A stretch of DNA of 64,000 bases, from positions 1 to 64,000 of the forward strand of contig JAHEJD010000002.1 in assembly GCA_024639005.1 (NCBI GenBank), in the 5' to 3' direction. A model generated the notes under the pieces. That model saw only the letters and a program-made list of their open reading frames with translations, was not told the DNA's origin and searched no databases. This document shows, one piece after another, positions 10,452 to 49,256 of this stretch (position 1 is its first letter; each line of letters starts with the position of its first letter). The position numbers and the translations under genes are program-made. The DNA is from Chromatiaceae bacterium. GTDB taxonomy: Bacteria > Pseudomonadota > Gammaproteobacteria > Chromatiales > Chromatiaceae.

Positions 10452-11216
10452 GTGTTCGAATGGATCTACAGCCCCGAGGCCTGGATAGCCTTGGTGACCC
10501 TGACATCCCTGGAAATCGTCCTGGGTATCGACAACATCATCTTCATTTCCATCCTGGTAAGCCGGCTGCCCGAGCATCAGCGCGACAGCGCGCGGATCAT
10601 AGGCCTGTCGCTAGCCATGATCACCCGGCTGCTCCTGCTGCTGTCGCTGGCCTGGATGATGCGCCTGACCGAACCCCTGTTCACGGTCCTGGCGCAAGAT
10701 ATCTCCGGGCGCGACCTGATCCTGATCGTGGGCGGGCTGTTCCTGCTGTGGAAGAGCGCCCAGGAGATATGGGAGAGTCTGGAGGGTGAGGAGGACACCG
10801 AGACCGGCAAGCCCGGGGCGGCGGTTGCGAGCTACGGGATGGTTCTGGTGCAAATCGCCATCATCGACATTGTCTTCTCCCTCGACTCGGTCATTACCGC
10901 GGTCGGCATGGTCGACATCATACCGGTCATGGTGATCGCCATAGTCATCGCCGTGGCCATCATGATGCTCGCGGCCAAGCCCATCGGCGAGTTCGTGGAT
11001 CGTCACCCGAGCATCAAGATGCTGGCCTTGAGCTTCCTGATCCTGGTAGGCGTGGTGCTCCTCGGCGAGGGCTTGGATCTACACGTCCCCAAGGGCTACG
11101 TCTACTTCGCCATGGCTTTCGCCTTCGCAGTGGAGATGATCAACATCCGCATGCGGAAGAAGCGGGCCGAGCCGGTCCACCTGCATAAGACCATACCCGG
11201 GGAAAAGGGCGACTGA
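10452..11216 (+). CDS. TerC-family integral membrane protein
   Basis: GTG start after AGGAGGT; LEIVLGIDNIIFI and IDIVFSLDSVITAVGM motifs. Confidence 0.9.
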   Translation: MFEWIYSPEAWIALVTLTSLEIVLGIDNIIFISILVSRLPEHQRDSARIIGLSLAMITRLLLLLSLAWMMRLTEPLFTVLAQDISGRDLILIVGGLFLLWKSAQEIWESLEGEEDTETGKPGAAVASYGMVLVQIAIIDIVFSLDSVITAVGMVDIIPVMVIAIVIAVAIMMLAAKPIGEFVDRHPSIKMLALSFLILVGVVLLGEGLDLHVPKGYVYFAMAFAFAVEMINIRMRKKRAEPVHLHKTIPGEKGD

Positions 11217-11540: not shown

Positions 11541-11957
11541 GTGGCCCCCAGAGACATTCCAGGGCTTGAATCCGGCGTCAAGGTGAGTTCCAAGTACTGG
11601 ATGGTGCTCGGTCAAATCGCCGTTATCGATATCGTCTTTTCGTTGCGTTCCGTCATCACCGCGGTCGGCATGGTCGACGACGTCGGCGTGATGGTCATCG
11701 TCATCGCTGTGGGTGTCATGATGTTCGCGGCCAAAGGAATCGGCGAATTCGTCGATGCTCACCCCAGCATCAAGATGCTGGCTCTGAGCCTCCTCATCCT
11801 TGTCAGTGTCGTGCTGATCGGCGAGGGCTGGGATATGCATATCCCCAAGGGTTACATCTACTTCGCGATGGCCTTTTGCTTCCTGGTCGAGATGATGAAC
11901 ATACGGATGCGCAAGAAACGCGCACGGCCCGTCGCCCTGCACGGACCTAGGGCATAG
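11541..11957 (+). pseudogene. Half-length TerC paralog lacking the N-terminal half
   Basis: IAVIDIVFSLRSVITAVGM...HPSIKMLALSLLILVSVVLIGEG matches only the C-terminal half of the neighbouring TerC; conserved Asp replaced by Arg. Confidence 0.75.
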
Positions 11958-45633: not shown

Positions 45634-46551
45634 TCAGCTCTCCTCAAGACTCTCGCGGTACTCGGTCAGCTGCTCCGCGGTGAGCAGGAAGACACCATCG
45701 CCGCCACGTTCGAAATCCAACCAAAGAAAAGGCACGTTGGGATAGCGACCCATCAGCAGGTCCGCGCTCGCCCCGACCTCGATTACCAGGATAGCACCGG
45801 GTCGCAGGTAGTCCGTCGCGCCAGCCAGGATCCGCGCTACGATGTCCATGCCGTCTTCTCCGGCTGCCAGTGCCAAAGGGGGCTCGTGACGATACTCGGG
45901 CGGCAGCGTCGCCATTTCCGCGCTGCTGACATAGGGTGGATTGCTGACGATCAGGTCGTAGCGTTCACCGTCCAGACCCTCGTAGACATCGGCGCGCAAC
46001 GCCCTGACCCGGTCTTCCAACTGATGGCGCTCGATATTTCGCGCGGCAACCTCGAGCGCCGCTGGAGAGATGTCGCTCAGGTCCACCAGGGCCTGCGGGA
46101 ATGCATAGGCGCAGGCGATCCCGATGCAGCCACTGCCGCAACACAGATCGAGCACACTAGCGACGTGGTCCGGGTCTAGCCAGGGGGCGAAGCCCTCCTC
46201 GATCAATTCGGCAATCGGTGAGCGCGGAATGAGCACATTCTGGTCGACAAAAAAGTCCAGGCCCGCAAACCGCGCCTCGCCGATCAGGTAGGCTACCGGC
46301 ACCCGCTGTTCGACCCGCGCCTGGAACAGTTGGATGATGCGCTCGGCCTCGGCCGCGGTCACCCGCGCCGCTAGGTAGTCGGCCGGGAGGGCGTGATCCA
46401 GGTGCACCGCATGCAGAACCAGCGCCAATGCGTCATCCAGCGCATTCTGCGTGCCGTGGCCGAAAGACAGCTCCGCGGCACTGAAGGAACTGGCACCCCA
46501 GCGCACCCAGTCGCGCATGCTGATCAGTTCGTTGTGTTGTGGGAGCTTCAT
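45634..46551 (-). CDS. prmB: 50S ribosomal protein L3 glutamine methyltransferase
   Basis: LDLCCGSGCIGIACAYAFP and LIVSNPPYVSS (NPPY). Confidence 0.93.
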   Translation of the reverse strand: MKLPQHNELISMRDWVRWGASSFSAAELSFGHGTQNALDDALALVLHAVHLDHALPADYLAARVTAAEAERIIQLFQARVEQRVPVAYLIGEARFAGLDFFVDQNVLIPRSPIAELIEEGFAPWLDPDHVASVLDLCCGSGCIGIACAYAFPQALVDLSDISPAALEVAARNIERHQLEDRVRALRADVYEGLDGERYDLIVSNPPYVSSAEMATLPPEYRHEPPLALAAGEDGMDIVARILAGATDYLRPGAILVIEVGASADLLMGRYPNVPFLWLDFERGGDGVFLLTAEQLTEYRESLEES

Positions 46552-46584
46552 GCCACCGCCTCGCTGGTCCCCGGCCCGAAGGCC

Positions 46585-46850
46585 CTAGTGGGCCATGCGG
46601 GAAGTTCGGTTACTCACAGAGCGCCGCTGATGAGCCAAGGTAAGGCGCACGCCGCAGGGAATGGCAGGCCCTTTTCAAGGTGTGCAACGCCACATTGGCT
46701 CATCAGCGACGCTCCCTCCGGGCCAGCCCACAAGCCACGTTGACCGCGTTACGCTCGCTGGAATTGGCGACGGCCAGTCCTGCGCTCGCGTGCCTTGCCA
46801 ACCCGGCTTGTGGACTGGCTGTGGGTTACCGAACTTCCCGCATGGCCCAC
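46585..46850. mobile_element. Copy 1 of identical 266-bp structured element with 32-bp imperfect terminal inverted repeats
   Basis: TIRs 46588-46619 / 46819-46850 pair at 30 of 32; internal inverted repeats 46621-46638/46695-46712 and 46722-46736/46804-46818. Confidence 0.8.
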
Positions 46851-47022
46851 TTGCCGCAGACCTTTGTGCCTCGCCGACTCATGCCTTGCGACGATACCGC
46901 TCCGCGCCATTCGACGGCTCTGGCCCGGCGTCGGAAACCGTTACTATAGCCGCACTTGCAACGCAGGCCCACACGCATGGGAGCCGGCTCATGCGCGCAC
47001 CGGCCTGGGGGACCTGGAGCCC

Positions 47023-48972
47023 ATGACCTTGCCGAAAATACTGCAATCCCTGAAGCTGCAGATCAGCATCGCTATCGCATCGCTCACGATACTGTTCGCG
47101 GTCTCCATACTGTACTCTCTGCATGTCATCGATCAGCAACACAGCGATGACGTACTGGTTCAGCTCGCCGGGCAGCTGCAGTTCAATCAACAGCGTCTCA
47201 CGGTGCAGGCCATGCGCTATCAGGAGAACGCCCCCAGAGATTACCCGAGCTACTTTCGCGACCTGCGCCTGTATTTCGAGGATCAGAAGAAGACCCGTGC
47301 CGAAATGAACCGGATCATCGAGGCATTCGCCACGAACCGCTTCGACAGCGCGCTGATCGGCGAGACCATGCGCATGCCGCCGCAGCTGCCCGAGCGTTCC
47401 CAGGTCATGGCCCAGGATCTGGCGGCGGTCTGGAAAGACTTCCTCGCGAAGCTCGATGAGCGCATCGGTCCCGATCTGGAAGAGCCACGGCTGGAATGGG
47501 CAGCCGCATGGATTGTGGAACAGAACGCAACGCTCGAGGAGATCTCAGAGCGCCTGTTGCGCACGCTCGAAAACGATGTCAGCGCCCGCGCCGCCGCGGC
47601 CAATCTGGTCAACCGTCTGCTCCTGGCCGCTGCGCTTGTGGTCGCGGTCGGTATCGGCGTGTGGTTCTACCGTCGCGTGCTCCAACCACTGTCAGCCGCG
47701 GTAGAGGGCTTCAAGCAGGTGGCGAACGGCGACTTTTCCTACCGCGTAGCGGTTAGCCAGAATAACGAGATCGGTTGGCTGGCGACCGCCTTCAACCACC
47801 TGTCCGGACGCATGGAAGCGCTGCGCAGGCTCCTCACGGGCCTCGAACAGGGGGCGTCCCTCGAGGGAACACTGCATATCCTGTCGGAAACCTTGCCCCC
47901 GCTGATCCCTGTGGACTGGATCGGGGTCCTGGTACTCGGTCCCGACGGCCGGATCCACCTGGAGAAGGCCTTCAGCGACGGGAAGCCGGACCCCCTGGGC
48001 AAGCTGAATTTTGAACCGGACAAGACGCTGCTCGAGGAATGCATCAGGAACCGCGAACCACTGCATATCCCGGATGTGCGAGAGATCGCGACGCTCTCTG
48101 ATAAATACGTGTTTCTTAGCCAGCTGTCCGACCTGGGGCGGCGCGACGCGATATTTTTGCCGATCGGCAGCAGGGCCACGGTACAGGGGGTCGCGGTGTT
48201 CGCCAGCCGATTCCCCAACAACTACCGACCTGAGCACCTCGCCCTGCTGCGCAACCTGGGCGTGCTGGTGGGCGTCAGCCTGGCCCGTACGATCCAGCTG
48301 GTCGAAAGCACGCGCCTGGCCAGCATCGGCCAGTTCGCCTCCGGTATTGTGCATGAGATTCGCAACCCGCTCGCGACCATCAACCTTGCCCTCGAACACC
48401 TCAAGGGCCTCACGAACTTACCCGGAAGCACGCACCAGCGTATCGACCTGGCAGATACCGAAGTCCGCCGCCTCGAGCGTCTGTTGGACGATATCCTGCT
48501 TTATGCGAAACCCCTGACGCTCAATCGCAGTACGCTGGACATCAACGAACTGATTGCCGATGTCATCGCTGCGATGGCGCAGGACCCGACGCCCATTGTG
48601 TTCCGACCGGACCCCTGTCCAGGGGTTTCTGCTGACCCTGATCGCATCCGCCAGGTTTTGATCAATCTCTTGAGTAACGCCCAGCAGGCGTCGCTGCTCG
48701 GTACCTCGGTGCAGATCAGATGTCAGCCGATCGACGGCCACCGGGTCGAGGTGGAGATCCAAAACGGCGGAGAGCCGATTCCAGAAAAGACGCTCGCGCG
48801 CATTTTCGAGCCGTTCTTCACCTCAAAGCCGGGCGGCACCGGGCTCGGCCTGCCGATCGTGCAGCGCATTGTCGATGCCCACGGCGGCCAGATCGCACTC
48901 GAGTCAGACACGCAAAATGGCACGCGCGCACGTCTGACGCTCCCGGTGATCTCTGCGGCTATCGCGGCCTAG
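47023..48972 (+). CDS. Membrane sensor histidine kinase (HAMP-GAF-like-HisKA-HATPase)
   Basis: MTLPKILQSLKLQISIAIASLTILFAVSILYSL TM start; ASGIVHEIRNPLATINLALEH H-box; GGTGLGLPIVQRIV; upstream ORF extension is element-derived. Confidence 0.88.
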   Translation: MTLPKILQSLKLQISIAIASLTILFAVSILYSLHVIDQQHSDDVLVQLAGQLQFNQQRLTVQAMRYQENAPRDYPSYFRDLRLYFEDQKKTRAEMNRIIEAFATNRFDSALIGETMRMPPQLPERSQVMAQDLAAVWKDFLAKLDERIGPDLEEPRLEWAAAWIVEQNATLEEISERLLRTLENDVSARAAAANLVNRLLLAAALVVAVGIGVWFYRRVLQPLSAAVEGFKQVANGDFSYRVAVSQNNEIGWLATAFNHLSGRMEALRRLLTGLEQGASLEGTLHILSETLPPLIPVDWIGVLVLGPDGRIHLEKAFSDGKPDPLGKLNFEPDKTLLEECIRNREPLHIPDVREIATLSDKYVFLSQLSDLGRRDAIFLPIGSRATVQGVAVFASRFPNNYRPEHLALLRNLGVLVGVSLARTIQLVESTRLASIGQFASGIVHEIRNPLATINLALEHLKGLTNLPGSTHQRIDLADTEVRRLERLLDDILLYAKPLTLNRSTLDINELIADVIAAMAQDPTPIVFRPDPCPGVSADPDRIRQVLINLLSNAQQASLLGTSVQIRCQPIDGHRVEVEIQNGGEPIPEKTLARIFEPFFTSKPGGTGLGLPIVQRIVDAHGGQIALESDTQNGTRARLTLPVISAAIAA

Positions 48973-49234
48973 TGGGCCATGCGGGAAGTTCGGTTACTCA
49001 CAGAGCGCCGCTGATGAGCCAAGGTAAGGCGCACGCCGCAGGGAATGGCAGGCCCTTTTCAAGGTGTGCAACGCCACATTGGCTCATCAGCGACGCTCCC
49101 TCCGGGCCAGCCCACAAGCCACGTTGACCGCGTTACGCTCGCTGGAATTGGCGACGGCCAGTCCTGCGCTCGCGTGCCTTGCCAACCCGGCTTGTGGACT
49201 GGCTGTGGGTTACCGAACTTCCCGCATGGCCCAC
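48969..49234. mobile_element. Copy 2 of the 266-bp structured element
   Basis: Read as identical to 46585-46850, same orientation. Confidence 0.8.
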
Positions 49235-49256
49235 AAGCAGCCGCCCTGGCGTGGGA

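Follow-up and report, generated by a model that had tools for sequence, protein, structure and literature searches.

A probable IS630-family MITE with a covarying folded core flanks a resident sensor kinase gene in a Chromatiaceae bacterium

We analyzed a 64,000-nucleotide window (contig C24, positions 1–64000) from the draft genome of a Chromatiaceae bacterium (G000; 155 contigs, 96% complete), in which a sensor kinase gene with HAMP, GAF, HisKA and HATPase_c domains lies between a pair of direct repeats. Positions 46585–46850 and 48969–49234 are identical at 266 of 266 bases, stand in the same orientation at a copy-to-copy spacing of 2384 bases and are set in flanking DNA that is unrelated between the two, as an initial annotation of this DNA had reported. 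Its further observations, that the kinase (47023–48972) is the sole gene between the copies and that neither copy encodes a transposase, were confirmed. The CTAG that it counted as the start of each repeat is indeed the same in both copies, but the leading CTA belongs to the target DNA. The element proper reads GTGGGCC...GGCCCAC (46588–46850 and 48972–49234) and measures 263 bp, with ends formed by the inverted repeats TAGTGGGCCATGCGGGAAGTTCGG; the left 26-bp terminal inverted repeat (TIR) is GTGGGCCATGCGGGAAGTTCGGTTAC and the right TIR is its complement with one mismatch. The features of the locus, including core hairpins located with a covariance model (R1, described below), are as follows.

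46586..46587, no strand: left target dinucleotide TA (of CTAG) of copy 1, read from the sequence
46588..46850, plus strand: putative MITE copy 1, between the divergent prmB (minus) and kinase (plus) genes, from the sequence and the genome copies
46588..46613, plus strand: left terminal inverted repeat of copy 1 (GTGGGCCATGCGGGAAGTTCGGTTAC)
46619..46714, plus strand: core hairpin 1 of copy 1 (covariance model R1, 89.3 bits, E 3e-20)
46722..46819, minus strand: core hairpin 2 of copy 1, on the opposite strand (covariance model R1, 80.7 bits)
46825..46850, minus strand: right terminal inverted repeat of copy 1 (one mismatch to the left)
46851..46852, no strand: right flank of copy 1, TT where TA is expected, read from the sequence
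47023..48972, plus strand: HAMP-GAF-HisKA-HATPase_c sensor kinase, a conserved neighbor outside the element, from its domains and relatives
48970..48971, no strand: left target dinucleotide TA of copy 2, read from the sequence
48972..49234, plus strand: putative MITE copy 2, at the kinase 3′ end and 22 bp from the end of iscR (minus)
48972..48997, plus strand: left terminal inverted repeat of copy 2
49003..49098, plus strand: core hairpin 1 of copy 2 (covariance model R1)
49106..49203, minus strand: core hairpin 2 of copy 2 (covariance model R1)
49209..49234, minus strand: right terminal inverted repeat of copy 2
49235..49236, no strand: right flank of copy 2, AA where TA is expected, read from the sequence

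The methyltransferase gene near the kinase encodes the L3 enzyme PrmB, and its start codon lies about 34 bp from copy 1 (46551–46588), so prmB transcription must begin within or cross copy 1 or the short spacer. The kinase is found in nine of nine genomes of the genus, nearly full-length at 63–67% identity in seven of the eight others (the copy in G003 is cut by a contig end), and the order hemN–prmB–kinase–iscR is conserved in the genus wherever contigs reach. The core hairpin is absent from the kinase loci of these eight relatives, where the sole listed match is a 31-base partial one (E 0.5); no empty site that could be aligned base by base was obtained. The kinase is thus a resident gene and not cargo. 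Direct identical repeats around exactly one gene had prompted the initial annotation to suggest a unit around the kinase, and such a composite mobile unit would consist of both copies and the kinase moving together. The cargo of a composite transposon should be missing from the empty sites of relatives, whereas this kinase is present in all nine genomes and syntenic in relatives without the elements. A separate CTAG target signature at each copy also speaks against the suggestion; the outermost flanks, CTAG and CAAG, show no common duplication around the supposed unit, and we consider a composite unit extremely improbable. By our own arithmetic, about 12 copies in 3.2 Mb would yield roughly 0.1 pairs as close as this one by chance, so that the bracketing of the kinase needs no special cause and looks like a coincidence.

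The kinase 3′ end further defines the junction with copy 2. The kinase stop codon TAG (48970–48972) falls within CTAG, and copy 2 begins with the last base of this codon. A relative's kinase terminates at the same position (LRLPVTGRIAA versus LTLPVISAAIAA, each followed by the stop), so that CTAG is the simplest assumption for the original target of copy 2. Without a stop at this junction, the kinase frame would continue for 41 residues.

The element is not special to the kinase locus. Six copies in this genome are 99.6–100% identical (the window pair included), two are at 77–80% and two at 69%, and one further copy cut by a contig end plus one lone end bring the total to about 11–12 in 3.2 Mb; copy number was a point that the initial annotation had left to be checked. 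The other copies adjoin unrelated genes. A short, transposase-free element of 263 bp with 26-bp TIRs and about 11 dispersed copies has the defining features of a MITE. The identity of the copies could instead be an effect of assembly, with short reads collapsing similar copies into one consensus, and a draft in 155 contigs with identical interiors and variable flanks would fit such an effect. We regard this as unlikely, since copies with one difference and copies with 20–31% difference stayed separate and the gene order around both window copies agrees with that of relatives. Recent duplication, gene conversion and selection had been offered as causes of the identity; duplication of a transposase-free element is upheld, and gene conversion may have acted as well, given that three of the six near-identical copies have an altered TA. 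Elsewhere in the window, a diverged direct repeat (10833–11185 and 11595–11941) is 75–78% identical at a spacing of about 760, and a tandem gene duplication is likely there because one copy lies within an ORF that we take to resemble a TerC-type membrane protein.

Comparison of flanks across 82 distinct copies from many genomes revealed CTAG at both flanks in 55 copies, and TA at both flanks in 61, at one flank in 21 and at neither flank in 0. The target-site duplication that the initial annotation proposed to look for is thus present at the level of the family as a TA duplication within CTAG, with the window copies as one-sided variants (TA/TT for copy 1, TA/AA for copy 2). IS630 is listed in PMC2170065 as inserting at TA within 5′-CTAG-3′ (Tenzen and Ohtsubo 1991), and ISY100 moves by cut-and-paste with TA duplication (PMC2170065); the combination of TA duplication and CTAG preference found here is that of an IS630-family non-autonomous element. 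In this genome one TA is altered (to TT, AA or TC) in three of the six near-identical copies, and ordinary mutation would predict fewer, as their interiors are nearly undiverged. The TC flank belongs to the copy on contig C21, and in the copy on contig C122 a TA flank is altered to GA; all four changes are transversions. In other genomes, most altered TA flanks belong to diverged copies and most of the changes are transitions. No copy carries the same variant on both sides. A hybrid-junction reading of the unequal flanks (CTAG/CTTG and CTAG/CAAG) was dropped: in other genomes the variants have the appearance of ordinary decay, and the kinase stop codon points to CTAG. The excess of altered flanks in this genome remains, for which gene conversion that homogenizes interiors, consensus effects of draft assembly or an unusual junction are possible causes.

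A pattern scan of public genomes identified one autonomous counterpart, a 1.1-kb element of Microbulbifer litoralis (L189) whose ends are the same and enclose a complete IS630 transposase. The L189 transposase is a 357-aa IS630-family protein with a DDE_3 domain (NF033545, 272 bits, cut-off 100), and its nearest plasmid relatives belong to the ISPpu2 group at 59–61% identity, with IS870 more distant at 48%. Compared with the window TIR, the right end of L189 agrees at 18 of 22 positions and that of ISPpu2 at 15 of 22, so that the window element shares its terminal repeats with an IS630 element and resembles ISPpu2-group ends. We recognized no IS630 or DDE_3 gene in this 96% complete draft; in the closed, copy-rich genome G044 the IS630 search gave only a weak partial match of 31 bits, and the copy-rich genomes G072, G082, G114, G121, G141 and G293 had no IS630 gene at the thresholds used. 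A partner transposase in the same genome, usual for a MITE and not strictly required, was found in neither this genome nor G044, and we therefore infer the IS630 partner from ends and targets. MITEs commonly outlive their partner transposase and L189 transposase relatives occur in 1977 plasmid records, which makes a visiting transposase plausible.

Other candidate partners fit less well. The IS630 transposases of G179 and G253 have ends that mismatch the resident MITEs. The IS701 family produces a YTAR duplication, and IS701 gave no match in this genome or in copy-rich G007. REP/BIME-RAYT systems combine a Y1 transposase with GTAG-tagged short palindromes; this genome has no PF01797 match, and the ends here are CTAG plus a 26-bp TIR. 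IS256 was set aside because the G044 copy L091 holds an IS256 element as a nested insertion with its own 9-bp repeat, AAGGGAGCC; this IS256-family element (L091:2671–4334) sits inside the linker between the copy's two hairpins and is flanked by the 9-bp duplication. Core-less forms also occur (L092:737–793 of G044, and L187), in which the terminal repeats are nearly directly joined into a palindrome of about 50 bp.

We examined the interior of the element as a folded molecule. As a single strand the element is predicted to fold into a three-way junction far more stable than shuffled sequence (z = -10.5), and its core is composed of two hairpins, each about 97 nt long, arranged head-to-head on opposite strands with a few bases between them. 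In an alignment of 36 different hairpins from many elements (A1), 93.8% of cells are standard pairs and 32 of 35 pairs vary at both partners, with a covariation score of 0.81 compared to 0.21 for shuffled sequences and at most 0.13 with slid partners. Model R1, built from A1, recovers the four hairpins expected in the window and no others. A second set of 50 R1 matches from loci in other families is 94.7% paired with a covariation score of 0.84, values that lean towards the structure to which this alignment was fitted, and individual model-free folds show the same shape. The unpaired inner-loop bases AAGGC/AACRC are nearly fixed, five of six positions being constant in 46 or 47 of 47 cases, and the one pair that separates them is G-C in 50 of 50. 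G-U cells outnumber A-C cells in the outer stem (68 versus 13) and in the A1 stems (57 versus 16), counts that are non-independent as they come from related sequences; this excess suggests that one strand, in the sense of model R1, is the selected one. Because stems covary and internal-loop bases are nearly invariant across Gammaproteobacteria, comparative sequence analysis strongly indicates that the core is under selection as a folded single strand, whether RNA or a cruciform or ssDNA strand. The number of hairpins varies, with a 156-bp class in Thioalkalivibrio and Microbulbifer having one, and R1 detects no core hairpin in autonomous L189.

Two readings build on this fold. In one, the repeats would be regulatory RNA or DNA elements kept here by selection to control prmB, the kinase or iscR, as the strong covariation, the G-U over A-C excess and the closeness of copy 1 to prmB and of copy 2 to iscR might suggest. 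We judge this very unlikely: the remaining copies lie near unrelated genes, relatives lack the elements at the kinase locus, and a search of the region found no promoter-like match. In the other, single-strand or site-specific recombination would read the folded strand, as in IS200/IS605-RAYT or attC-type systems, with the ends as a third stem, one CTAG as part of the element and the second as target DNA. Conservation is indeed highest in the hairpins and not at the ends, flank variants affect one side only, and most host genomes tested have no IS630. The ends nevertheless match bona fide IS630 elements, no Y1 transposase was found in this genome, the kinase stop codon implies CTAG and not CAAG as the target of copy 2, and the flank variants in other genomes have the character of decay, making such recombination improbable. 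We instead consider it very probable that the repeats are two independently inserted copies of a non-autonomous, CTAG-targeting IS630-family MITE whose hairpin stems are under selection as a folded strand.

The family extends well beyond this genus. Of 274 gammaproteobacterial genomes sampled evenly across the class, 92 contain R1 matches, and many of these have at least 15. At most of 29 class-wide loci the core lies between inverted ends of about 30 bp that start with TA, and element length is nearly constant at about 163 or 265–290 bp. Single-linkage clustering, with a threshold that exceeds the 99th percentile for shuffled pairs, divides 24 ends into seven TIR groups, suggesting that the core was joined to ends of different IS630 lineages by TIR swapping; alternatively, the ends diverged with their transposases from one ancestor. 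Rfam searches returned no match in the window up to E 1, and for nine related loci a single match, to a miRNA family, far below the gathering score; the core therefore does not belong to a known Rfam family. The element had no match in viral contigs, in plasmids or, searched with a Microbulbifer hairpin, in phages, and we found no description of the hairpin family in the open-licence literature. The element family is apparently widespread and unnamed.

Comparison with described elements places this family near several known systems. RUP of Streptococcus pneumoniae, for which IS630-Spn1 is the thought mobilizer (PMC2229807), is likewise small and non-autonomous with IS630-like ends and a TA target, but is 107 bp long and is set apart by its description, which includes no double covarying hairpin core. 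The ISPpu2/IS870 group shares CTAG-type targets, ends starting CTAGTG and similar inner bases, but carries a transposase, and L189, which has the MITE's own ends, is without the core hairpins. ERIC/IRU is also a TA-flanked gammaproteobacterial MITE with a stable fold, but of 127 bp, and one E. coli ERIC locus gave no R1 match even at E 10. CIR of Caulobacter similarly has two arms and a linker, and QMITE1 and QMITE2 of Coxiella have strong predicted folds (PMC2229807, PMC5896051); QMITE1 is 300–400 bp with variable 2–3 nt repeats and QMITE2 has 7–11 nt repeats, and those sources report no CTAG rule. The likeness to integron attC sites, with variable stems and fixed unpaired bases, is one in kind only.

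In the mechanism that we propose, an ISPpu2/IS870-type transposase acting in trans would recognize the inverted ends and move the MITE by cut-and-paste into the TA inside CTAG, duplicating TA. Two independent insertions would have placed one copy in the prmB–kinase intergenic region and the other at the kinase stop codon, and the transposase would later have been lost from this genome. The fold may be read at the nucleic-acid level by a widespread factor that favors spread of the element or makes it tolerable. Extended to the class, this gives a tentative picture, which we hold as a serious possibility somewhat short of probable, of a mobile family whose conserved part is the folded core, with its AAGGC/AACRC loops and freely varying stems, and not the ends; the ends would be matched to many IS630 transposases, and a conserved host or transposition factor would read the fold as RNA or extruded ssDNA, enabling persistence without IS630.

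What is out of the ordinary here is the element family and not the kinase locus. Such repeats break draft assemblies and can pass for composite transposons. Compensatory change in nearly all core pairs, nearly fixed unpaired bases, presence in a third of the sampled gammaproteobacterial genomes and absence from Rfam together argue that something reads the fold, and its reader, if found, would reveal a new structured RNA that transposons have spread, or else a structural requirement of MITE transposition.
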